Assembly: GCA_016930085.1 (NCBI GenBank)
Contig: JAFGHO010000088.1
Location: 1-64,000 of the forward strand
Reading direction: 5' to 3'
Source: Spirochaetales bacterium
GTDB lineage: Bacteria > Spirochaetota > Spirochaetia > SZUA-6 > JAFGRV01
Length of the DNA stretch: 64,000 nt
A program made the translations under genes and the position numbers. Positions 43,963 through 57,667 of this stretch are shown piece by piece; position 1 is the first letter of the stretch; every line of letters begins with the position of its first letter. The notes beneath the pieces were generated by a model that was not told the origin of the DNA, searched no databases, and saw only the letters and a list, made by a program, of their open reading frames with translations.

Positions 43963-44023
43963 ATGCGAAGATATCTAGAATAAACGGTCATTATTAAGTA
44001 ACGGCAGCTCTTAAATAATGTAA

Positions 44024-44057
44024 CCACGGATTTCGCGGGGAAGAGCGGATTGCGCGG
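44024..44057 (+). repeat. ~37-bp repeat, copy 1 (inverted relative to copies 2 and 3)
   Basis: CCACGGATTTCGCGGGG followed by AAGAGCGGATTGCGCGG. Its reverse complement matches copy 3 (57872-57908) at most positions. Translated on the plus strand it gives TTDFAGKSGLRG, similar to the peptides of the other copies. Together with copy 2 it brackets the DUF1016-N/SNase gene in inverted orientation. Confidence 0.6.
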
Positions 44058-44104
44058 CGACGCTAGTGAAGCCGTTAAAAGCTTAACGGTTTATAAAATA
44101 TTTT

Positions 44105-45100
44105 TTATGATTTATATTTTTTTGCCAATCCTTTTGTTAATAATTCGTTGTTCAGGAAATTTCCTTTTTCTGCGATTTCATCGATATCGGTTTCCTCCTT
44201 TATATAATAAATGTCTGCGAGGTATCTGTTGTATTTATCCCGATAGTATGTTTTTACAATGACATATGTACATTCGTAAAGTTGGTTTATTATGTATTGT
44301 TGTGCTTTTTTACCTTCACCTGTCGTTACATCGGCCGCGTTTATTCCTCTTAATCTTAGCTTTTGTTTTGTCCTTATTTCGAATCCCAAATCGATATTCA
44401 CCCAGAGGGTGTCGCCGTCGACTATTTCTTCGATGCTGCCCCGATAGGTAAATAATATACCGGGATTAATATTTTCCTTTTTATAAAACCGGTATACGTT
44501 ATTTTCCTTTTTTACTTCGATTATATCGTCTTCGTTGAACCCGTTCATGGTATGCGTTTTATATATTCTGAATCCCAGATCAAGGGATAATGTATCGTTT
44601 ATTTTTTTTAACCTGTATAGAAACGGTATTCCTCGTTTTTCCGCTATGTTACCGTTTTTACTGTTTTTTTCCTCTTTTCCTTCTTTGACGAGGTCTTCCA
44701 GTTCCCTTGTACTCAGTTTTTCTTCAAGAACTCTCCGCTCGTATTCTTTTCTTTTTTTTTCATCCCTCACCGTAAGGAGTATCCTGTAATGGGTCCATGT
44801 CAATTGTCTCCGCGCGGAGACAATTTCCGGATATGTTTCATAAAACTGAAGTATTTTATACAATGTGCTGCGTCCCATATCGATTTCTTCAGCAAGTCTG
44901 GTAAACACGTATTCTCCGTAGTCCGCCCTGTCGGTATAATTGAGCATGTGCTGATTTATGTGTCTGCCGATATTCCAGTAGGTTATTGTTCTTTCGTTTT
45001 CAAAGGTGTTGAACATACGCTGTTTGCTGTTGTCGATTTCTTTTTTTATAATATCGATAAGCTGGCTTATTGTTGTTTTTACGGTAATCGCTTTTCCCAT
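44105..45100 (-). CDS. DUF1016 N-terminal domain fused to a staphylococcal-nuclease-like domain
   Basis: Residues 1-145 match the N-terminal domain of YhcG/DUF1016 proteins (YWNIGRHINQHML, YGEYVFTRLAEEIDMGRSTL, LTWTHYRILLTVRDEKKRKEY). In place of the usual PD-(D/E)XK nuclease, residues 220-330 form an SNase-like domain: EEIVDGDTLWVNI, KLRLRGINAADVTTGEGKKA, DKYNRYLADIYYI. The metal Asp of VDGDT and both catalytic arginines (RLRGI, NRYLAD) are present; the second acidic position reads Asn in GIN, and the general-base Glu reads Asp. The gene is AT-rich, stands between two inverted ~37-bp repeats and borders a type I restriction locus. A DNA- or RNA-cutting defence role is inferred. Confidence 0.8.
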   Translation of the reverse strand: MGKAITVKTTISQLIDIIKKEIDNSKQRMFNTFENERTITYWNIGRHINQHMLNYTDRADYGEYVFTRLAEEIDMGRSTLYKILQFYETYPEIVSARRQLTWTHYRILLTVRDEKKRKEYERRVLEEKLSTRELEDLVKEGKEEKNSKNGNIAEKRGIPFLYRLKKINDTLSLDLGFRIYKTHTMNGFNEDDIIEVKKENNVYRFYKKENINPGILFTYRGSIEEIVDGDTLWVNIDLGFEIRTKQKLRLRGINAADVTTGEGKKAQQYIINQLYECTYVIVKTYYRDKYNRYLADIYYIKEETDIDEIAEKGNFLNNELLTKGLAKKYKS

Positions 45101-45271: not shown

Positions 45272-45343
45272 TCATCCGTGAAATCCGCTTTTTACCGCGT
45301 ACTCCGTAGAAAAAGACATCCATAACGCTTTAAAATTTGCCAT
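45272..45343 (-). CDS. Mini-ORF (23 codons) facing away from the GxxExxY gene
   Basis: ATG 45343 has AAGGAGG eight bases upstream, inside the outer palindrome arm, exactly mirroring the GxxExxY start. The product reads MANFKALWMSFSTEYAVKSG-FHG. A similar unstarted stretch at copy 3 (57872-57908) reads LWNKRFTTDFAVKNGWRG-stop; the differences are mostly conservative (S/T, E/D, Y/F, S/N, F/W, H/R). It may be the relic of a small gene or simply follow a DNA repeat. Confidence 0.3.
   Translation of the reverse strand: MANFKALWMSFSTEYAVKSGFHG
45273..45309 (+). repeat. ~37-bp repeat, copy 2
   Basis: Begins CATCCGTGAAATCCG and ends ACCGCGTACTCCGTAG. It matches copy 3 at 30 of 37 positions and is inverted relative to copy 1. 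It lies upstream of the DUF1016-N/SNase gene and just left of the nested palindrome. Confidence 0.65.
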
Positions 45344-45349
45344 ACGTGC

Positions 45350-45485
45350 CGCCTCCTTAATGCTTTCTCACGATGGTAATCTAATTCCGGCCGCCTGTCA
45401 AGGTCGGGCACTCCGTGTTGCTCCGCAAACCTTGACAGGCGGCCGGAATTAGATTGATTGGTCTCGAAAAAGCATTAAGGAGGCG
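45350..45485. repeat. Nested perfect inverted repeats in front of the GxxExxY gene
   Basis: The inner arms are 27 bp and perfectly complementary (45378-45404 and 45429-45455, around AATTCCGGCCGCCTGTCAAG), with a 24-base loop. The outer arms are 17 bp and perfect: CGCCTCCTTAATGCTTT (45350-45366) and its complement (45469-45485). The right outer arm contains the AAGGAGG of the GxxExxY gene and the left one contains the same signal for a start in the other direction. Read-through RNA would bury the ribosome site in a very stable hairpin. Confidence 0.9.
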
Positions 45486-45491
45486 TCTCTT

Positions 45492-45872
45492 ATGACAAAA
45501 CTCATCTATAAAGAACTATCGGATCTAATTATTCGAATGGCTTTCGCCATACACTCGCATTTTGGCCCTGGTCTGCTGGAATCCGTCTATGAAAGCGCGT
45601 TCTGTGTCGAGCTTTCACGTGCCGCTGTTCCGTTCGAACGTCAGAAAATCTATTCGCTGAACTACAAAAATGAATACGTCGGTGCTTATATCGCGGACCT
45701 TGTCGTCGACAATACAATTATCCTCGAACTTAAAGCAGTTTCGCAGCTTTCGAAGGTTATGGAAGCACAAATTCTCAGTTATTTGAAACTTTCGGGGCTT
45801 CCCGTCGGTTATCTCATCAATTTCAATACGTACAGCCTTGAATGGAAACGGTTTGTTAACCAGCTGTCGTGA
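45492..45872 (+). CDS. GxxExxY family protein (PD-(D/E)XK-like fold)
   Basis: The 126-residue protein carries the name-giving motif in GPGLLESVYESAF and a PD-(D/E)XK-like core YIADLVVDNTIILELKAV. The family occurs in high copy in some genomes and is thought to be nuclease-related, without a proven role. AAGGAGG lies eight bases before the ATG, in the right outer arm of the palindrome, and a UUCG-loop terminator follows directly. The unit of palindrome, gene and terminator looks like a self-contained cassette. Confidence 0.88.
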   Translation: MTKLIYKELSDLIIRMAFAIHSHFGPGLLESVYESAFCVELSRAAVPFERQKIYSLNYKNEYVGAYIADLVVDNTIILELKAVSQLSKVMEAQILSYLKLSGLPVGYLINFNTYSLEWKRFVNQLS

Positions 45873-45907: not shown

Positions 45908-47170
45908 CTAATGCTTGCCGCCGATTGAATCGAGAATTTGATTTAAAATCCCGGAAGGAAACGAAGGCGACGAGTCTCCTTTCAATAAACCGGTCTCCGC
46001 CCTGCTGAATAGCGACTGCAATATAATTTCCCTGTGCTTTTCTTCAAGAACACCTTCTTTCAATAAAGCCAGATACTGGTGGGTTAATTGCAGCCGTTCA
46101 TTTGCATCACGTGATAAATGGAAGGCGCTTAATGCTAATTTTACAAATAATCTCAATAAAAAGATTAATGCGGAAAAAATCAAAGCAAGCAGGATCGTCC
46201 ATCTTATTATATTTTCAATTGAAATGCTTTTTGAAACCTGTTCTTCACTCAATGTCGTATTGGAATTTGTTATATTTGTTCCGGTAAAAAGCTGGTCGGG
46301 TAAATTCTCCAATAGATGAAAAGATATAAAGATAATAGCTATAACCATACAGACACTCAATCCGATCCATATAACACCGCCCCATCGATATCTTGTTTTG
46401 AATTTTTCCCAATAGGAAGCCGGGCCGTCTATTCTCAGTTTTTCTTGATATTGTTTTGTCAATTCTTTAAAATTATCTTTTTCTGTTTTGTATTGTTCAT
46501 TGAACCTTTTTTCTTCATTTGCTAACAAATTTTTACTTTTAGTTGAGAATTCTCCAATAATTTCTTCCTTTTTGTTTCTTATATCAACTATTGCATTTGA
46601 AAGTATATCTCTGTTGTTTTCATTTTCTTTGATTATTAGTTCATATTCTCTTGTTGTATTATCAGTATGCGTGACAGCTTCATTATTGAGTATTTGAAAA
46701 CCCCGAATCGCGTAATGCATAAATCCGGCTGATGGCTGTTGATTGAATTTTGAGTCGAATTGCTTCTGTTTTTGAAACAGATATTCCCAGATAAAATCTA
46801 TGTTTGTTCTACTCTCACATACTTCAATAATAAAACTTCCGAATTCTGTTTCGGAATATACATAAGCCGGTTCGGGATTTTCGTTATTCATTTCGAAAAT
46901 TTTATTTTTAATTATTTGTAAAATATGTTCTCTATTTTCTGTGTTGACGATATTTTCTAAGTCGTGTATACGTGCTTGAAAATTATTCTTTATCTTGTTT
47001 ATTCTTCCGCCTCTATATTTCATCCAAAACCCCAATTCATTTTGCAAAAATCTGTAAAAAGAACGGAATGATTTGAATGTTTTGGTTTTTGTACCGGGAT
47101 ATAGATGCAAGATGAATGGTTCTTCCTTGAATATTTTTTCTACATGATCCGGTATTTTAATATCCTCCAT
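45908..47170 (-). CDS. DUF6161 coiled-coil membrane protein
   Basis: The 420-residue protein has a cytoplasmic N-terminal half, a coiled-coil region (about 180-250, rich in E/K/N), and two transmembrane helices (about 273-293 and 328-350) around a short outer loop. The C-terminal HLSRDANERLQLTHQYLALL and ILQSLFSRAETGLLKGD stretches are the DUF6161 signature. It lies 16 bases after hsdR on the same strand and is AT-rich. DUF6161 genes are often found near restriction or other defence genes; a membrane effector role is a guess. Confidence 0.75.
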   Translation of the reverse strand: MEDIKIPDHVEKIFKEEPFILHLYPGTKTKTFKSFRSFYRFLQNELGFWMKYRGGRINKIKNNFQARIHDLENIVNTENREHILQIIKNKIFEMNNENPEPAYVYSETEFGSFIIEVCESRTNIDFIWEYLFQKQKQFDSKFNQQPSAGFMHYAIRGFQILNNEAVTHTDNTTREYELIIKENENNRDILSNAIVDIRNKKEEIIGEFSTKSKNLLANEEKRFNEQYKTEKDNFKELTKQYQEKLRIDGPASYWEKFKTRYRWGGVIWIGLSVCMVIAIIFISFHLLENLPDQLFTGTNITNSNTTLSEEQVSKSISIENIIRWTILLALIFSALIFLLRLFVKLALSAFHLSRDANERLQLTHQYLALLKEGVLEEKHREIILQSLFSRAETGLLKGDSSPSFPSGILNQILDSIGGKH

Positions 47171-47186
47171 TTCAACCTCCTGTATA

Positions 47187-50100
47187 TTACGCTACACCGT
47201 ACACACTCTCCGTCGCTGACGCATACTGCCTGAACACATGTTCATAAACATTATCCGCGATACGGTAAACCTCTTTCTCTTCATAATCATCGACGGGAAG
47301 CCCCGTTTCCTCCGCATAGAGAAAATCCTTTATAAACACCTTTACTTCATCGCGCGTCGATTCCTTCTCCCTCCAGTGGTCGATCTTTAATTTCTCCTCT
47401 TTCAAAGCTTCCAGCAATGACTGTGCAATCGCTTTGAGTTTATCGATCGTCTTTTTTGAAAGGCCGGGCTTTATTAATAGATCGAATAGGGCGAGGTTCT
47501 CTTCGTCAAGCCCCTCTCGTATTGTCCGTTTTTCTTCGTTATCAAGATCATTGACAAAACCGATTAATGCTTCGAATGTCTGTTCGATGGTCTGTCTTTC
47601 TTTTTCCCGGTTGTATTCATAAATAATTTCCGCATAACGTTCCTGGAAATTGATGCGCAGGGGATTCCGGCATATCATCGCATGTACTTTTTTCTCTATC
47701 GCCGCCATGAGTTCCTGTGCCATTGTGTGTTTTGAAGGGTATTGCTTGAACTCCTGTTTCAACAGCTCGAAGTTTATTTTGCTTATATCGAATATCCTGT
47801 CGGGCTGTTCCGAGGCATTTTGGGGTTCGATATTCCTTTCCACGACTTCATGAAGCTTCCTTATAATCGATGAAATATCCGCTTTTTCACGGTCCTCCTG
47901 CAGTTTCCTGTAAATTACGTTGATTGCCTTGTATTTCCGTATGTACTTTTTGATTTCATTCCGCAGGTGTATTGCCGCCTTGAATTTTTTGAATACCTCC
48001 CGTGCCCGTACTTCGAATCCTTTTCTCGTTTTATTGTTGATATTAATGGCTTCCTTTGCCTCCCGTATCGCTTTTATTTTTTCGAATCCGTCCGAAGTCA
48101 GCATATCGTTGAGGTTGAATCCGAACCGTTTAAGATATGACACCGTTTCCTCAATCGTCTTTGCGAGTAATAAAACCAGTTCCCCGTCAGGTTTCGCCGG
48201 ACTTTCTCCAGGTTTTGCTTCGTTGCCGCTTCCGTAGACGGCAAGGGCTTTCCTCAAGTTTTTGAGGATTCCGCAGTAATCGACGATAAGTCCGTTCTCT
48301 TTTCCTTCATTGACCCTGTTCGCCCGTGCGATCGCCTGCATTAATGTATGTGCTTTCAGCGGTTTGTCCAGATAAAGGGTCGAAAGGCTTTTGACGTCAA
48401 ATCCGGTCATCCACATGGCGCATACAAAGGCGATACGGAAGGGGTGATCTTCTTTCTTGAAAGCCGTTTCGACATCGATGCGTTTACCGTCCGTTGTATC
48501 GAATCCGTTTTTTATGAGCCTTCTGTGTGGTTCTATATCGATATTCCATTTTCTGAACTTGTCCACCTCACCCTGTTCTTCACTCAGAATCACCGCCATC
48601 TGTGTTTCCGTCATCCATTCCTTTTTTCTTATAAGGGCAGGCACTTCCTGCGGATCTTTTTCCGTATCGATTAATCGGGATGTTTCGTCGATTTTCCTTT
48701 CCCAGTAATTCCCGACAAGCAGGTACATTCTCACCGTGGTGATTTTATCGAGACAAATCACCATCGCCTTCCCGGTTTCCCACCGGTCCGTATAATGATC
48801 GACAATATCCTTCGCGATCGCATCGAGTCGTTTCCCGGCCGTCATGATATGGTATTCCCGCGCCAGTTCTTTTTCGAGCAATGCCTGCCGGTCGACATCG
48901 AGTATTTCGCCTTCAAGCGCTTCCGCCATTTTTTCGTTTATGCGTTCCGTTGACAGTTTGAGCTTTTCCCCCCTGCTTTCGTAATAGAGGGGGACCGTCG
49001 CCCCGTCGTCGACCGCCCGCTTGAAATCGTAGGTTGAAACATAGTCGCCGAATACCCGTTTGGTTATTTCATCGTCTTTGAAGAGGGGGGTGCCGGTAAA
49101 CCCGATAAACGAGGCGTTCGGAATCGCGTTCCGCATGTTCAGCGCGAACGTCCCGTACTGTGTCCTGTGATTTTCATCGGAAAGAACGATGATGTCGCTT
49201 CGTTCCGAATACGGATCGTTCTTCGGCACCTCACGGTTGAATTTGTGAATCATGGTAAAGAGGAACGTGTGGTCTTCCCGGAACAATTCCTTCAAATGCT
49301 CGCCGCTTGAAGCCCTGCACCCTTCTTCTCTTACAAGGCCCACCCCCGTGAATGTCCGGTAAATCTGTCGTTCAAGGTCCTCCCTGTCGGTGACGATGAG
49401 AAAGGTGAAATTACCCGTCATCTTTCGACGGGTCTTTTTACAGAGAAAAACCATCGAATACGATTTTCCGCTTCCCTGTGTGTGCCAGAACACACCCAGT
49501 TTACCGCCGAGTGTTTTCCTTTTCCTTATTGCTTCGACCGCCCTGTTTACGCCAAGGTACTGGTGATTTCTCGCGAGTATCTTCACGCAGTGTCCCCTCG
49601 TTTCGTCAAAGAGAATGAAGTTTTCGACAATGTCCATGAAGCGCCCCTTGCTGCACATACCCTGAAGCATGATTTCGAAGTCGAGGCTTCCCTGTTCTTC
49701 TTCCTTCAACCGCTTCCAGTCCGTATATTGTTCATAGCTGCTTAATATGATTCCCGTTTTTGCTTCATCCCCGTTACTCAGGATGATCATCGCGTTGTAG
49801 TAAAATATATGGGGAATCGTGTCCATGTAATCCCTGAGGTTTTCGTCATACGCCCGCCTGACGTTTTTATGGGCCGCCTTCAATTCCATAAAAAGAAGCG
49901 GGATGCCGTTCACGAATCCGACGATATCCGCCCTCCGCCTGTACAGGGGGCCCTGTATCCACAACTCGCGTACCGCCAGGAAATTATTGTTTTCCGGATT
50001 GTCGAAATCGAATAGTTTCAGCCTCACGCTTTTTGTTTCGTTTTTTTCGTTTTTATAATTTACCAGAATTCCATTGATGCAGAGGTCATACTTTTCCCTG

Positions 50101-50375
50101 TTCTGGATTATAACGGATCGTGTATAGCTTATTTCGGAAAGTTCCTTTACCGCGCTCTCATAGACGGTATCCAGAAAGCCGGGATTTATTTTCGAAAGCG
50201 CCTGCTTCACGTACCGTTTGAGGATGACTTCCTTTTCAGACATCCTTCCCAGGGTTCCTTTTTCTCCTAGAACTTCATCGTTGTACGCGTAGATCGAATC
50301 CCAATAAAGGTTATCCTTGAAAAAATCGGCCGTTGTTTTCTGGACTAATCTGTCTTCGGAGAACTCGTGGGGCAT
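47187..50375 (-). CDS. hsdR: Type I restriction enzyme, R subunit
   Basis: The 1062-residue subunit cuts and translocates DNA. The N-terminal endonuclease motif is ADIVGFVNGIPLLFMELKAA (PD-(D/E)XK). The SF2 motor has Walker A WHTQGSGKSYSMVF, motif Ia LIVTDREDLERQIY, the DExH box as LSDENHRTQYG, motif III GFTGTPL and motif VI QAIARANRV. A helical C-terminal domain binds the methylase. It starts three bases after the subtilase gene, so it is translated together with IetAS rather than with hsdM and hsdS directly. Appears intact. Confidence 0.93.
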   Translation of the reverse strand: MPHEFSEDRLVQKTTADFFKDNLYWDSIYAYNDEVLGEKGTLGRMSEKEVILKRYVKQALSKINPGFLDTVYESAVKELSEISYTRSVIIQNREKYDLCINGILVNYKNEKNETKSVRLKLFDFDNPENNNFLAVRELWIQGPLYRRRADIVGFVNGIPLLFMELKAAHKNVRRAYDENLRDYMDTIPHIFYYNAMIILSNGDEAKTGIILSSYEQYTDWKRLKEEEQGSLDFEIMLQGMCSKGRFMDIVENFILFDETRGHCVKILARNHQYLGVNRAVEAIRKRKTLGGKLGVFWHTQGSGKSYSMVFLCKKTRRKMTGNFTFLIVTDREDLERQIYRTFTGVGLVREEGCRASSGEHLKELFREDHTFLFTMIHKFNREVPKNDPYSERSDIIVLSDENHRTQYGTFALNMRNAIPNASFIGFTGTPLFKDDEITKRVFGDYVSTYDFKRAVDDGATVPLYYESRGEKLKLSTERINEKMAEALEGEILDVDRQALLEKELAREYHIMTAGKRLDAIAKDIVDHYTDRWETGKAMVICLDKITTVRMYLLVGNYWERKIDETSRLIDTEKDPQEVPALIRKKEWMTETQMAVILSEEQGEVDKFRKWNIDIEPHRRLIKNGFDTTDGKRIDVETAFKKEDHPFRIAFVCAMWMTGFDVKSLSTLYLDKPLKAHTLMQAIARANRVNEGKENGLIVDYCGILKNLRKALAVYGSGNEAKPGESPAKPDGELVLLLAKTIEETVSYLKRFGFNLNDMLTSDGFEKIKAIREAKEAININNKTRKGFEVRAREVFKKFKAAIHLRNEIKKYIRKYKAINVIYRKLQEDREKADISSIIRKLHEVVERNIEPQNASEQPDRIFDISKINFELLKQEFKQYPSKHTMAQELMAAIEKKVHAMICRNPLRINFQERYAEIIYEYNREKERQTIEQTFEALIGFVNDLDNEEKRTIREGLDEENLALFDLLIKPGLSKKTIDKLKAIAQSLLEALKEEKLKIDHWREKESTRDEVKVFIKDFLYAEETGLPVDDYEEKEVYRIADNVYEHVFRQYASATESVYGVA

Positions 50376-50378
50376 GGG

Positions 50379-52865
50379 TTACCTCGGTATTTTTATTTCC
50401 ACTGGTGTCTCAACCTTTATTTTAACCGGTGTATAAATATCGACGTCCACTTTCGGAGAATATATTGATACGACAAGTGAATATCTCGCCTTTTTGTTCC
50501 ATTTTTGTAAATACTGTCTTTCACGCCACCATCCGATAACCGGATAAATCCCTATAAGATTACACGATGCCAAATCCATTGCAGTTCCCTTCCATATATC
50601 CGAATGAATAGAACCTTTTTCCCTGTTTGTTGCACCAAATAACCATTTATCGGAGGATGAATATTTATTTTCTTCATCTTCTTCTCTGGCAAGCTTATTA
50701 ATCCTTTTAATAAAATCATTCAATTTTTCTGTTGATTTATTCAAGCGGAATCGTAGTCCGTGAGAAGCATACCTGTACCTGTCTTTCCATCCGATTTCAC
50801 CCGGTCCCGGTTCAATAAAATAGGATAACGTCATCCGTAATTCCACTTCGATTTCTTTCAGGCTTATTAATTCTTCTTTGGGCCATGGAAGTTCATAGAT
50901 ATGCATATCTTTTGTTTTGTAGCTGTTATTCTTTTTATCGAATGGTTGTAGTTCGTTTTGAACTATCATTGTGAGTGAATTGCTTGTACACTCAATTGCT
51001 TTCTCAAAAGAAGGTATTCCGTACCCGCACGTTTTCAATAGCCTTGTATATTCCGTTTTATTTTCATTTGATAGAAATTGCTTTTTCATCGCATCCGACC
51101 AGTTTGCAGAGTGAACTATGAGTGCCCGTATTGTTTCGGGCCATGCTTCAGGATATCTCGATATTATTTGAGCCGCAAACCATGATGCCTTTGCGGCCGC
51201 ACAGCTTGTCTGGTTCATAATACCGAATTGCCTTTCTATCGGTTTAAAATAAGTGGAAAGACAACTTAAATCATCACAACTGGAAATAAATCCGTCTTTA
51301 CCCTGTGCCAGATTACCGCCTTCCATGACAATATCCGGCTTTACAGGCCATTTTTTATCCCAGACAGCTGAAGTTGTACTATATGGAGATAATTCTCCCT
51401 CTTTAGCAATTGGCGTATATTCTTCTAATTCCGGATCCGTTATCCTTACTTTCTCTGTATGGGCTCCAACGGTAATCGCATTCCATGACTGGCCCGGGTC
51501 ATGGATCGAATCTGTCATATTCGAATCTGGATATTTATATGTAAAGTCTATATTCTGTTCTGTCATAGCATTGCCTGCGCATAATATAATCAGCCTTTTT
51601 ATATTATCATCTGCTCCTGATGATAGTTTATCTATAGCGCCTGACCATGAGGACGGACGCCCTCTATCGATATTTGATTTATCGGTAACAGCAAGACAGG
51701 TTACTCTGTTTCGATTTGGATTATTGATTTCTGCTTTACTTATCGATTGGATTATGATTGCGCCATAGAGATGTTTCGGATTCTTTCCTTTTGGCGGAAG
51801 CACTTTTACGCTTTCAATCGAATGATGTATAGTAACAGGAATATTCGTTTGCAAGCATTCCTCGAGACTGCCGTAAATCGAAATTCCGGCCAAAAGAGTT
51901 CCATGGCCTGAATCATCATTTTTGCCCCATGTTATATCCCATGAATCCATATCATTCTCATCCAGCAAAGGCTCTATGAGTTTATGTCCCTTATTTATTC
52001 CTGAATCCAGAATGCATATGGATGTTTTTGATTTTTCAGCTATCGCTAACCTTTTTAATAAATTCTCCACCCATCCAGCCTGTTCTATGTTTGGAAGTTC
52101 CATCCAGAATGCCGCCGTTTCTTTTGCCGCTCTTATTTCTGCAAGATAGGGAAATGATTCAATAATCAGGTTAAGTATCGCGTTATCTGTAAAGGCAATA
52201 CATACTGTTTTTTCAGGAAATACAATTCTTTCATCCTGGTATTTTATATCATTTGCATCACAAAACATTTTAAATTGATTATATACTTCTTCCCTGTCAC
52301 TCGAAAGCCATATTTCACACCATTTTTTACTGTCAAAAGGAATAGATGAAATATCTTCGATAGGCTGCCAGAATGATTCGATAACGGCTAATTTGATGTC
52401 CTCGATACTTTCAACAAGATTTTTGTTTTTTGGGTTCCCTTTGTTAGTTGTTTTTTCTGCATATTCCTTTACTTTTTTAAGAAAATAACCTCTCATATTT
52501 TCAGGTATGAATACTGTCGCTCTTACAGGTTGGTTTTGTTCAATATTCTCTTCTTTTACATTACACAGTTTTATTCCGTATTTTATATTCTCAAGGCTTT
52601 TATAAATCAAATCGGCACCAGTAGCACCGAGAACATCGATATAACAGCCGCTCTTTACATCAGGCATTGATATGGCTTTTCTCTGTTCCTTTTTTTTATC
52701 GAAATAATTCCAAACTTTATCGAGCTTTTCTTTGATTCTTTGTGCATGTATTATTCTATCTCTAACAGGTATTCTTAATTTTGGTATGACTGTTTTAGGT
52801 GAGACATACTCAATCGTTTGTCCTTTATTTGTTAAAAATATATGAGGGTATTTTTCTTTTGCCAT
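50379..52865 (-). CDS. ietS: Subtilisin-like serine protease of an IetAS-type defence pair
   Basis: The 828-residue protein has an N-terminal region of about 280 residues, then an S8 peptidase domain with catalytic Asp in CILDSGINKGH, His in GHGTLLAGISIYG and Ser in NQTSCAAAKASW (replacing the usual GTSxAxP). An Asn oxyanion residue is seen in ILCAGNAMTEQ. There is no signal peptide, so the protease acts in the cytoplasm. It follows the AAA ATPase gene by nine bases. Such ATPase-subtilase pairs are known as IetAS, first as plasmid-exclusion genes in Agrobacterium and later as an antiphage system. The gene is AT-rich compared with hsdR. Confidence 0.8.
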   Translation of the reverse strand: MAKEKYPHIFLTNKGQTIEYVSPKTVIPKLRIPVRDRIIHAQRIKEKLDKVWNYFDKKKEQRKAISMPDVKSGCYIDVLGATGADLIYKSLENIKYGIKLCNVKEENIEQNQPVRATVFIPENMRGYFLKKVKEYAEKTTNKGNPKNKNLVESIEDIKLAVIESFWQPIEDISSIPFDSKKWCEIWLSSDREEVYNQFKMFCDANDIKYQDERIVFPEKTVCIAFTDNAILNLIIESFPYLAEIRAAKETAAFWMELPNIEQAGWVENLLKRLAIAEKSKTSICILDSGINKGHKLIEPLLDENDMDSWDITWGKNDDSGHGTLLAGISIYGSLEECLQTNIPVTIHHSIESVKVLPPKGKNPKHLYGAIIIQSISKAEINNPNRNRVTCLAVTDKSNIDRGRPSSWSGAIDKLSSGADDNIKRLIILCAGNAMTEQNIDFTYKYPDSNMTDSIHDPGQSWNAITVGAHTEKVRITDPELEEYTPIAKEGELSPYSTTSAVWDKKWPVKPDIVMEGGNLAQGKDGFISSCDDLSCLSTYFKPIERQFGIMNQTSCAAAKASWFAAQIISRYPEAWPETIRALIVHSANWSDAMKKQFLSNENKTEYTRLLKTCGYGIPSFEKAIECTSNSLTMIVQNELQPFDKKNNSYKTKDMHIYELPWPKEELISLKEIEVELRMTLSYFIEPGPGEIGWKDRYRYASHGLRFRLNKSTEKLNDFIKRINKLAREEDEENKYSSSDKWLFGATNREKGSIHSDIWKGTAMDLASCNLIGIYPVIGWWRERQYLQKWNKKARYSLVVSIYSPKVDVDIYTPVKIKVETPVEIKIPR

Positions 52866-52874
52866 TTGACGGTA

Positions 52875-53837
52875 TTAACTCCGTTTCCCGTAAGCATCTT
52901 TCCTCTCTTCAATCATAGAGATAAGGTTTTTTTCACTCACATCATTTTTATCGTTTAAAATTGCTTCTTTTATCGCATCGTCACATGCCCCGCATATTTC
53001 CGCATGGCTTAATGAACGTGCACTCTGTACCGCTTTTTCAATTTTTTTATTGCTGAGAATAAAATTACCCAACCTGTTCGTAATAAGGTCTTTTATTTCA
53101 TTGTCACCCGGTAATTCGTAATGAAGGACATCGTCGAATCTTCTGAACAATGCATTATCAAGAATCGTGACATTGTTCGTCGCGGCCACGATGATGCTGT
53201 CGGAATTGTCCTGTTCGATAAATTGCAGAAATGAGTTGAGGACACGCCTCATCTCCCCGACATCGTTGTCCCTTCCCCGTTCAGCCCCGATCGCGTCGAA
53301 TTCATCGAAAATATAGACGCCCTTTCTGTTTTCGATAAATTTGAAAACCTGCCGTAATTTTGCGCTCGTTTCGCCCATGTATTTTGTCACAAGCTTATCC
53401 ATGAGAATGATAAAAACAGTAAGTTGCAGTTCTCCGGCGATGACCTTTGCGGTCATGGTTTTCCCCGTGCCCGGCGGGCCGCAGAGAAGTATTTTCCTCC
53501 TGTGTGAAAGGCCGTGTTTTTTTAGCTTTTCCTGTTTTTTGTATTCGGTCAGCACTCTTTTGATTCTGTTTTTCAGTGCTTCGGTAATGATTAAATCCGG
53601 TATGCGAAACTGGGTTGTCCCGGCTATGACCAGATCATTGAGTTCTCCCTGGAACGGGATAACCCTTGCCTTTTCTTCCCGTGACTTGTCGACCAGATTG
53701 CGTATTTCAAAAGCGAGATTCGTGTGCCCGACCTTTGCCTCGTGTGCGGCGACCTGCAGGGCAATAGTGTTAAACCGCTCGATATCATGTTCGAAATGAG
53801 ACTGTATGAGTGATTTCAATTGCTCTGCCGTGGCCAT
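52875..53837 (-). CDS. ietA: AAA+ ATPase of an IetAS-type defence pair
   Basis: The 320-residue ATPase has a helical N-terminus and a classical AAA core: Walker A GPPGTGKTMTAK (about 120-131), pore-loop region KYMGETSAKLRQVF, Walker B GVYIFDEFDAIG, sensor VAATNN and arginine-finger LFRRFDDVL. It presumably controls or feeds substrates to the subtilase encoded nine bases downstream. It starts 93 bases after hsdS, so it is part of the same transcription unit. The pairing with an S8 peptidase fits IetA. Confidence 0.82.
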   Translation of the reverse strand: MATAEQLKSLIQSHFEHDIERFNTIALQVAAHEAKVGHTNLAFEIRNLVDKSREEKARVIPFQGELNDLVIAGTTQFRIPDLIITEALKNRIKRVLTEYKKQEKLKKHGLSHRRKILLCGPPGTGKTMTAKVIAGELQLTVFIILMDKLVTKYMGETSAKLRQVFKFIENRKGVYIFDEFDAIGAERGRDNDVGEMRRVLNSFLQFIEQDNSDSIIVAATNNVTILDNALFRRFDDVLHYELPGDNEIKDLITNRLGNFILSNKKIEKAVQSARSLSHAEICGACDDAIKEAILNDKNDVSEKNLISMIEERKDAYGKRS

Positions 53838-53930: not shown

Positions 53931-55103
53931 TCATACCTCAATCTCCCCCTTCATAAGCCGTGGAAGCAACAGATCGCGTGATTGTTTTAGCAGCTTGTTT
54001 TGTTCAGTTAAGTATCTTATCTGTTTATCAATTGGATTTGTTATCTTTTCAAATGCAGAGATAATAGATTCAGTAGGCATAATTATCTCAATGAAATGCA
54101 TCTGTTCTTTCGTAACTGCTGCGAATATAGCTCCTGTTCCTATAATATTTTCTTTAAAAAAATATGACTGTAATTGATAATATAAAAACGATTGATTATT
54201 CTTTTTACTTTTTATCCCTGCCAATCCTCTCCCTAATATTAATTTTGATGGAGCAATATTCAATCTGCCAACAGGTGCTCTTACACTACAAAGTATATCT
54301 CCATCATATGTAATTCTATTTCCGGAAGTTGAATATTTTTCATGTTTTACATATCGGTTGCCAAAATTGGTAACTCCCTGGTGGAATGGCAACCCTTTAC
54401 CTTCTGTATTGTAATACATTGACTTCGGGCTTTGTCCCATTATAATAGAAGCAACCTCCCCCAGCTTCTTCCTCTCCCACATCTCGGGCAGGCCGTCCTT
54501 GAACCTCGCCTTCTCGTGTCCCGGAAACCTGAACCGGACAAACCATTCCTTATAGAGCTCCCGTGCCGCTTTTTCCAGAAGTTCGATACGCCGAATGTTG
54601 TTCTCGATAAGGTCGTCGTAAGCGGAAAGGATTGAAGCGATTTTTTTCTGGATGGGGAGAGTGGGGAGATTCAATTTTAAATTTTCAAGATTTACTTTAA
54701 TAATTGTATCGAAAACTGCTCCATGAGTATTTTGTTTAAGTCTATTTGAAGCTGATTTTAAAATATAGTATAAAAAATCTTGGCTGCAATATAAATTATT
54801 TTTACTTAATATTGCATAGCAAGATTGATTAAATGCCATTTGTTTTTTACAAACAACAATTTTACCGACGGTACCTCTTGCAGATATTATAATACTCCCT
54901 GAAGGCACTATTTTTGTGTTAGAATTGTTAAGTCCAATATCTGTAATAGTTTTTTCAGTTGATATTATATGCTTATTATCTTTAAAATCTGTAACGGAAA
55001 TCCATGGAATTAAGCCATTCCAATATGCTTTATTTTGTGTTGAAGGTGTTCCTCCAAGAATAATTTCTGCAATATTTCCCAATTCAACTTCTTCCCAATT
55101 CAC
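53931..55103 (-). CDS. hsdS: Type I restriction enzyme specificity subunit
   Basis: The 390-residue subunit has two target-recognition domains (about 1-145 and 205-350), each followed by a conserved helical spacer: LPIQKKIASILSAYDDLIENN with ELYKEWFVRFRFPG in the middle, and QNKLLKQSRDLLLPRLMKGE at the end. It selects the bipartite DNA site for methylation and cutting. GTG start. The central spacer is GC-rich like hsdM, while both recognition domains are clearly AT-rich, the pattern expected when recognition domains are exchanged by recombination. Confidence 0.9.
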   Translation of the reverse strand: MNWEEVELGNIAEIILGGTPSTQNKAYWNGLIPWISVTDFKDNKHIISTEKTITDIGLNNSNTKIVPSGSIIISARGTVGKIVVCKKQMAFNQSCYAILSKNNLYCSQDFLYYILKSASNRLKQNTHGAVFDTIIKVNLENLKLNLPTLPIQKKIASILSAYDDLIENNIRRIELLEKAARELYKEWFVRFRFPGHEKARFKDGLPEMWERKKLGEVASIIMGQSPKSMYYNTEGKGLPFHQGVTNFGNRYVKHEKYSTSGNRITYDGDILCSVRAPVGRLNIAPSKLILGRGLAGIKSKKNNQSFLYYQLQSYFFKENIIGTGAIFAAVTKEQMHFIEIIMPTESIISAFEKITNPIDKQIRYLTEQNKLLKQSRDLLLPRLMKGEIEV

Positions 55104-55268: not shown

Positions 55269-55706
55269 TCATAATACTTCCCAATACCCCCCCTTATCCG
55301 GTCCGATTCTTTTAAGAAGCCCTTTTTCCTGCAATTTCTTTACGTTTCTTTCAATAGAACGGGTGGTTACGCCGATTCTCGATGATAATTCTTCTATTGT
55401 TAATGATGGTGTCTCTTTTAACAGAATAATTATTTTCTCCGACGTTTTCTCCGACGTTTTCTCCGACATATCGGAAAAAAAATCATCCTTGAACGTAATA
55501 TAAAATGAATGCGGGCTTTGATCAAAAACCGGTTCCGGTAATCCTTCTTCTTTCATCGCGTCCCTCATCCGCTTTATCCCCGTTCCCATTTTCTCCACAT
55601 AAATGGTTCTGGCCAAAAGCGATGCGATAATCGGATTTCTGGATTTGCTCACTTTACCGAACTCTTCCGGCGACATCCATTTAAACTCAAGTTCTTCCTT
55701 TGTCAT
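55269..55706 (-). CDS. C-terminal fragment of an ATP-binding/winged-helix protein (AlbA_2/RecG-like type)
   Basis: The 145 residues correspond to the end of the ~450-residue proteins with an AlbA_2 or HATPase_c_4 region: SKSRNPIIASLLARTIYVEKMGTGI, RMRDAMKEEGLPEPVF and a winged helix (LTIEELSSRIGVTTRSIERNV). The EKTSEKTSEK linker is typical of the family. The N-terminal DNA/ATP-binding part is missing, yet the frame has its own ATG two bases after hsdM and no internal stop. It may be a decay product or a small regulator kept with the locus. Confidence 0.7.
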   Translation of the reverse strand: MTKEELEFKWMSPEEFGKVSKSRNPIIASLLARTIYVEKMGTGIKRMRDAMKEEGLPEPVFDQSPHSFYITFKDDFFSDMSEKTSEKTSEKIIILLKETPSLTIEELSSRIGVTTRSIERNVKKLQEKGLLKRIGPDKGGYWEVL

Positions 55707-55708
55707 GG

Positions 55709-57667
55709 CTAAATCCCCAGCTCCTCGAAGTTGCTCCGGATTATCTCCGCTAATGTTACCGCATCGTCGTTCAATTGTTCCAGTTCCCGGTGAATCTCCT
55801 GTATGGTCTCGTGGAAGTCAAAGTCCTCGTCCTCTTCTTCGGGCGCCACCCCCACATAACGCCCCGGCGTCAGGCTGTAATCGTTTTCCGCTATTTCCTT
55901 TGTATCCACAAGCTTCACAAGCCCCGGAACATCGGCAAGCGATGCGTCCGGAAAACGCTTTATATGCCAGCCGGTCTGCTTGTGGAAATACAGGGTCTGC
56001 TTGATCGCGTCGAGCGCCTTCCCGTGTGCTTCTTCGAGTTCCGCCTTCCGCTTTTTACTGTTGCGGGTTTGATCGGGTCCTTCGATCGCAGCCTTGAATG
56101 ATACTTCGAGCAGTTTCCTCGCTTCGGCAAGCCTTTCGGTAACCGGCAAAAAACCGGTATAAGCCTTTTTCTGTTCTTCATGTGTTGTGAGCTTCCCCGC
56201 TTTTTTAATAAAAGCCCTTATATCATTCGCGCATCCATCCGTTTCTTTTTTCAGCCGCTGTACCGTTTCATTTTCTTTTTCCCGGATGATATCGTGATAT
56301 TGTTTAATAGCTGTTTCTGTTTCTTGTGCGTGTGACGTCATGCTGTTAAAGTATGCTTCGATAAGCGAAAGGTATTTTTTTGTGTCGCCCCTGTACAGCC
56401 ATACGATGGATGTTATGTTGTTGAGCTGTTCGGGTGAAAAGTCGTAGACCCTCCGGCTTACCATCCGGTATGTGTTTCGTGCGTCGATCATGAGCACGCT
56501 GTCCCTCCGTGCTTCCGGCTTGTCATTGTTCAGAAACCAGAGTTCGCAGGGAACGGAAAGGGTATAGAAGAAATTTGACCGTATGGCGATCATCGCGTCG
56601 ACCGCGCCGGTCTCGATCAGTTTTCTTCGTACTTCCCGTTCGCCGCCGCCCGCGCTCGATGCCTGGCTCGACATGACGAATCCGGCGCGGCCCGTTTCGT
56701 TCATGTAACTGTAAAAGTATGAAATCCAGAGGTAGTTGCCGTTCGACACCTGCTTTTTCTTGTTCACCCCCGGAAGCCCGAACGGCAGCCTGGGGTCCGC
56801 TTTCACCTTTTCCGCGTCAACCCCGTCGACATTGAACGGCGGGTTCGCCATGACGAAATCGGCCTTTTTTAACAGGTTGTGTTCGTCCTGATAAAAGGTA
56901 TTTGCCTCGGCGATCTTCCCTTCCAGCCCGTGCACGGCGAGATTCATCCGCGCCAGGCGTATCGTTGTCGCGGTCTTTTCCTGCCCGTAAAAGGTGAGGA
57001 CCCGCTGCGGGTTCTTTCCCCGTACGTGCATAAAATGGCCGGTCTGCACGAACATTCCCCCGGAACCGCATGCGGGATCGAAGACGATGCCGTGGTTCGG
57101 TTCGATGACATTGACGATCGTCTGTACCAGTGAAACGGGAGTAAAAAACTCGCCTTTCTCTCCTGCCCCCGCCATGGCGAAGTTCATGAGAAAATATTCA
57201 TAGATTCGCCCGAACACATCGCCGGACGCCTTCCGTAGCGCTTCATCGTTGAATATCTTTAAAAGGCGGTTTAATAAATCGTTGTCGAATATCTGGTAGT
57301 CTTTCGGCAGGATGCCCATGAGCTGTTCGTCCACCGCTTCGATCGCTTCCATTGCCTCATTGACGGCCGCAGAAGGATCATCACCCTGCGGAAGATTGAG
57401 AAGGTAGTCGTAACGTGATTTTTCGGGAAGATAGAGGGCCGCCTTTCCTTTATAATCTTCCTTTGTAATAGCCCTCGTCTTGCCTCCCCGTGACGGGAGG
57501 TTCTTCTTTATTTCTTCCTGCGCCGTCAGGAAACGGTTGTACGCGTACCGGAGGAAGATAAGCCCCAGGACGGGCATGGAATATTCCGTCTGTGTGAGTT
57601 TGGAATTGGCGCGAAGCTGGTCCGCCGCCTCCCACAGCCGTTTTTCAAGTTTCGTAATATCCTGCAT
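55709..57667 (-). CDS. hsdM: Type I DNA methyltransferase, M subunit
   Basis: The 652-residue subunit methylates adenine in the HsdS target. It begins with the HsdM N-terminal domain (RLWEAADQLRANSKLTQTEY), then the AdoMet motif FDPACGSGGMFVQT and the catalytic motif MANPPFNVDGV (NPPF). The C-terminal half has coiled-coil segments and an acidic patch EEEDEDFDFHETI. It is the first gene of the run hsdM, fragment, hsdS, ietA, ietS, hsdR, DUF6161, all on the minus strand. It appears intact. Confidence 0.93.
   Translation of the reverse strand: MQDITKLEKRLWEAADQLRANSKLTQTEYSMPVLGLIFLRYAYNRFLTAQEEIKKNLPSRGGKTRAITKEDYKGKAALYLPEKSRYDYLLNLPQGDDPSAAVNEAMEAIEAVDEQLMGILPKDYQIFDNDLLNRLLKIFNDEALRKASGDVFGRIYEYFLMNFAMAGAGEKGEFFTPVSLVQTIVNVIEPNHGIVFDPACGSGGMFVQTGHFMHVRGKNPQRVLTFYGQEKTATTIRLARMNLAVHGLEGKIAEANTFYQDEHNLLKKADFVMANPPFNVDGVDAEKVKADPRLPFGLPGVNKKKQVSNGNYLWISYFYSYMNETGRAGFVMSSQASSAGGGEREVRRKLIETGAVDAMIAIRSNFFYTLSVPCELWFLNNDKPEARRDSVLMIDARNTYRMVSRRVYDFSPEQLNNITSIVWLYRGDTKKYLSLIEAYFNSMTSHAQETETAIKQYHDIIREKENETVQRLKKETDGCANDIRAFIKKAGKLTTHEEQKKAYTGFLPVTERLAEARKLLEVSFKAAIEGPDQTRNSKKRKAELEEAHGKALDAIKQTLYFHKQTGWHIKRFPDASLADVPGLVKLVDTKEIAENDYSLTPGRYVGVAPEEEDEDFDFHETIQEIHRELEQLNDDAVTLAEIIRSNFEELGI

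Follow-up and report, generated by a model that had tools for sequence, protein, structure and literature searches.

Proteins of the YhcG type, in which a DUF1016 N-terminal domain (DUF1016_N) is followed by a PD-(D/E)XK nuclease domain, are widespread beside restriction systems, and the literature that we searched contained no established function for canonical YhcG. The staphylococcal nuclease (SNase) fold is that of the S. aureus nuclease, in which E43 serves as the general base, D40 as a metal ligand, and R35 and R87 as phosphate-binding arginines. In the 64,000-nucleotide stretch of Spirochaetales DNA analysed here (hereafter referred to as the window), a single open reading frame joins the N-terminal domain of the former to a nuclease domain of the latter type. 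Its parts are as follows.

44105–45100, minus strand: DUF1016_N–middle–SNase fusion gene (331-residue ORF; homologues found)
44684–45049, minus strand: DUF1016_N domain, residues 18–139 (Pfam and YhcG profile matches; all-helical in the model)
44477–44629, minus strand: small middle beta domain, residues ~158–208 (AlphaFold model; profile–profile comparison)
44108–44455, minus strand: SNase (OB-fold) domain, residues 216–331 (Pfam, profile and structural alignment)

Pfam assigned residues 18–139 to DUF1016_N (E 1.6e-21; 77.2 bits against a cut-off of 32.8), with an overlapping HTH_ParB match at residues 67–142 (E 8e-8), and residues 249–330 to SNase (E 1.8e-6; 28.8 bits against a cut-off of 21), while the YhcG_C PD-(D/E)XK domain (PF06250) had no Pfam match in the protein. 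By profile comparison, E. coli YhcG aligned with the N-terminal half (probability 99.3), and the C-terminal domain matched S. aureus thermonuclease when searched against the PDB (E 5e-6). An AlphaFold model built from a mixed alignment of 26 rows reached a mean pLDDT of 83 (38 from the single sequence) and featured a helical domain up to residue 148 and, after a disordered linker, a small beta domain (161–208) and an SNase fold (217–322), on which the S. aureus nuclease structure 1snd superposed with a Z score of 14.4 and 1.5 Å over 99 residues; SNase entries dominated this structure search, which barely probed the N-terminal and middle domains. Pfam, profile and structural results thus agree with the original prediction of a DUF1016_N domain joined to an SNase-like domain, the PD-(D/E)XK domain being absent, and the profile search of the C-terminal region, whose failure it had named as a refutation, did return SNase.

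The middle domain has its own relation to SNase. Residues 158–208 open with an FxYR...LDLGF-type motif, similar to one that opens the SNase domain, and in profile–profile comparison the start of the middle domain matched the first strands of SNase over 30 columns (E 1.9e-6; probability 89.7). When single sequences were compared, the likeness was clear in four of 11 members (L039, L041, L045 and L048), weaker in the others, and not significant in the window fusion itself. A partial internal repeat is thus possible.

A search for proteins having both domains found the fusion in 11 spirochaete genomes, with about 26 loci among them, and also on Leptospira plasmids. Close relatives of the source genome contribute copies of 44–54% identity, and full-length relatives of 30–39% identity occur in 7 further genomes, belonging to several families, among the 393 genomes of the phylum that were searched. 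A scan of genome contigs, in which only close relatives matched, gave a 51% relative in a Spirochaetales MAG (L004). On plasmids the whole fusion was present in Leptospira records only, where it is annotated as a DUF1016 N-terminal domain protein; plasmids from other hosts carried one domain or the other, never the fusion. Only single domains were found in 50,697 phage records, and no match in 244 cyanobacterial genomes covered both DUF1016_N and SNase. Within the data searched, whose whole genomes were those of Spirochaetota and Cyanobacteria, the fusion is therefore confined to Spirochaetota. Because the identical architecture recurs in many genomes, a chance fusion is excluded, and the DUF1016_N–SNase protein is confirmed as a real architecture. 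We found no mention of this combination, as a characterised family or otherwise, in the literature searched; both domains are already known, and their combination, its status as a family and its linkage to restriction–modification (RM) genes appear to be undescribed there. Three long DUF1016 ORFs were considered as further architectures and rejected: one is an ordinary YhcG by Pfam (L078), and two were recognised by eye as YhcG whose frames had been opened at false starts far upstream (L024 and L033).

In the window, the fusion adjoins an island of type I RM and IetAS genes, which places it at an RM/defence locus. The island runs on the minus strand from 57.7 kb, in the order HsdM, a short HATPase/winged-helix ORF, HsdS, IetA, IetS, HsdR and DUF6161, and a plus-strand GxxExxY gene lies between the DUF6161/AbiZ-like gene and the fusion.

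55709–57667, minus strand: HsdM, type I methyltransferase subunit
53931–55103, minus strand: HsdS, type I specificity subunit
52875–53837, minus strand: IetA-like AAA ATPase
50379–52865, minus strand: IetS-like subtilase
47187–50375, minus strand: HsdR, type I restriction subunit
45908–47170, minus strand: DUF6161 protein, AbiZ-like by PADLOC (8.5e-25; Pfam and PADLOC)
45492–45872, plus strand: GxxExxY-type PDDEXK_3 gene, beside the fusion

Several features of this region are recorded in their own right. The IetA and IetS homologues (50379–53837) lie between hsdS and hsdR, one defence system being nested inside another, and the DUF6161/AbiZ-like gene adjoins hsdR where the RM gene cluster ends. 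The 145-residue ORF between hsdM and hsdS (55269–55706) carries the last part of an HATPase_c_4 domain together with a winged helix, and resembles the tail end of what would be a larger regulator of the AlbA/HATPase kind. A long palindrome (45336–45499), with perfect 27-nt arms and a 24-nt loop set within 34-nt outer arms, precedes the GxxExxY gene; gene and palindrome recur together at several places in the source genome, the gene family having nine matches there and 21 in genome G393. GxxExxY genes also occur near other fusion copies. Just downstream of the window fusion, a segment of about 50 bp (44020–44070; CACGGATTTCGCGG...) is repeated downstream of the copies on contigs C113 and C32, and at C114. 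RHS-repeat sequence follows the fusion on each of two Leptospira plasmids (L065 and L066) and, in the source genome, the copy on C113 (L054 680–928), and on another Leptospira plasmid an RHS gene lies upstream of the fusion (L067).

The family as a whole is enriched near RM genes. Inspection of the neighbourhoods placed HsdS or HsdR within 10 kb of eight of the 26 fusion loci, against 0.61 expected, and within 5 kb of six, against 0.36 expected (11 genomes in both counts); the Poisson P of ~3e-7 for the 10-kb count is a guide only, as decayed copies are included and paralogues are counted as independent, and the RM neighbours had been spotted by eye before they were counted. The remaining 18 loci have neither gene within 10 kb, and several of them are on contigs of only 3–6 kb. 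Pfam-checked neighbours include HsdM (L039), HsdS (L047), HsdR (L049 and L075), type III res and mod (L046) and, at L041, HsdS, canonical YhcG and HsdR together; at L075, HsdS and HsdM stand beside a decayed copy. Elsewhere the fusion is accompanied by an AAA/resolvase pair (L048) or by a subtilase and an NB-ARC protein (L037); the subtilase at L037 is IetS-like and adjoins an IetA homologue (36%), making a second IetA–IetS pair directly beside a fusion. Canonical YhcG genes of the same genomes lie within 0.6 kb of HsdS or HsdR in six of seven cases. One of them is situated between hsdM and hsdS in the other type I locus of the source genome (contig C25). That locus (L218, 2560–15373) encodes HsdM, YhcG, HsdS, an OLD-family ATPase with a UvrD-like helicase, an ImmA/IrrE-type protein and HsdR, the ATPase–helicase pair being Gabija-like by eye. 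The modular exchange of nucleases on a DUF1016 N-terminal domain, as originally proposed, thus recurs as a family that is enriched at RM/defence loci.

We consider that the fusion is an accessory effector of RM/defence islands, like the RM-linked YhcG, in which an SNase domain of a type common in phages replaces the PD-(D/E)XK domain; we assign this reading a probability of about 0.5. The helical DUF1016_N domain would bind DNA, or a DNA-bound component of the RM system or island, and would position the SNase domain on nucleic acid, which the latter would cut or, in the window lineage, bind and at best slowly cut. The fusion would in this way reinforce the protection that the RM system gives from foreign DNA. 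DUF1016_N would supply a location or DNA-binding function suited to RM loci, and the nuclease behind it would be exchangeable. We infer DNA binding and nuclease activity, and a role in defence from genomic location only. A survey of the varied neighbours for a conserved partner gene found none, so the fusion probably acts on its own. Against the island-effector reading, 18 of the 26 loci lack HsdS or HsdR within 10 kb, and an opposite-strand gene separates the window fusion from the RM genes.

The same neighbourhoods could be read as those of a selfish, solitary mobile gene that spreads and decays within genomes and comes to rest in variable regions, defence islands among them, where it would have no role. 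Several copies, many of them broken, occur per genome (G100, G179, G220 and G396), a decayed fusion copy is accompanied by a GxxExxY gene in the source genome (G000:C32), three copies share a short downstream sequence, fusions are carried by Leptospira plasmids, and the varied neighbours include no fixed partner. We nevertheless regard hitchhiking as quite unlikely. Neither a transposase nor clear element ends were noted with the fusion copies, and the RM linkage resembles that of canonical YhcG, the sole comparator, rather than what variable regions in general would show. The dN/dS ratio is also well under 1: it is 0.21 between the two fusion copies of this genome (SNase half), indicating that the gene is still constrained by purifying selection, and 0.07–0.24 among relatives.

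A third reading, a DNA repair or recombination nuclease without a link to defence, is a guess prompted by the resemblance between the nuclease of YhcG and the Holliday-junction resolvases of the YraN/AHJR group (PMC1189080). It is precisely this resolvase-like domain, however, that the fusion lacks, and no repair genes recur beside the fusions in the neighbour survey. SNases are not known to be junction-specific enzymes, which also speaks against this reading, and we hold it to be very improbable. Nor did anything in the analysis point to recombination, which the original prediction had named as an alternative to defence.

To what extent the SNase domain of the fusion would cut is suggested by its active site. 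In the PDB alignment, the window fusion retains the equivalents of D19, D21, T22, R35, D83 and R87 of S. aureus nuclease, and has N254 for D40, A255 for T41, A256 for P42 and D257 for E43; thus, neither the metal ligand D40 nor the general base E43 is kept. The equivalents of D21, R35 and R87 (D230, R249 and R292) are invariant across 22 fusion members. As the original prediction had stated, both acidic residues are altered, but the Asn at position 40 proved to be ordinary. Among 79 viral relatives with this type of SNase, collected with a pattern that fixed DGDT, needed R or K at position 35, restricted positions 40 and 42 and left 43 free, 60 have D at position 40 and 19 have N, and we dropped the Asn as a mark of a special active site. 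All 79 have E at position 43. Of the 22 rows of the fusion family, 14 keep E43; the six that form the window clade, which is monophyletic (support 100/99), have D, K, P, S, P and D in its place, and L046 and L048 have lost it too. The Leptospira plasmid fusions have W at position 40 and retain E43, and sister groups outside the window clade retain both D40 and E43 in the same genomic context.

Outside the window lineage, most fusions carry the residues that one would expect in a working SNase. In the window lineage the arginines and one metal ligand are kept and the general base is lost, so weak or no cleavage would be expected. The replacement of E43 throughout that lineage argues against the ordinary SNase reaction there, and is more likely to weaken or abolish catalysis than to create a new activity.

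Taken further, these residues might indicate that the SNase domain of the window lineage binds and no longer cuts, the protein acting through DNA or RNA binding as a regulator or an adaptor; Tudor-SN, with its inactive SN domains, is a precedent. E43, which never varies in the viral SNases, is replaced in the whole six-member clade, and D21, R35 and R87 are invariant and dN/dS stays at ~0.2 despite that replacement. The Asp at position 43 of the window copy is a conservative change, however; sister groups with both D40 and E43 share the same context, and the invariance of D19, D21, R35 and R87 exceeds the needs of a mere binding fold. A complete loss of cutting is, in our estimation, somewhat unlikely.

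Returning to the island-effector reading, the nuclease was swapped while the N-terminal domain and the location were kept, which points to the N-terminal domain as the part responsible for targeting. It is tempting, but doubtful, to generalise that DUF1016_N is a targeting module for RM islands with interchangeable nucleases, and that the spirochaete fusions are undescribed anti-phage effectors, one lineage of which has rebuilt its SNase site without the general base. The source genome, with one RM locus carrying YhcG and another carrying the SNase form, offers a natural pair for probing targeting.

Among known systems, the YhcG family (DUF1016_N + YhcG_C, COG4804; PADLOC candidate PDC-S02) is homologous to the fusion in its N-terminal domain and is likewise found in type I RM loci, with YhcG and the fusion together in one RM locus at L041; it has the PD-(D/E)XK domain where the fusion has a middle beta domain and SNase. 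The phage-type SNases (PF00565, IDLGF subgroup) have the fold, the DGDT motif, R35 and R87 in common with the fusion and, in the Asn-bearing minority noted above, the substitution of the window copy at D40, whereas the fusion differs from them in being joined to DUF1016_N and, in the window lineage, in the replacement of E43. S. aureus thermonuclease shares the fold, but stands alone and has both D40 and E43.
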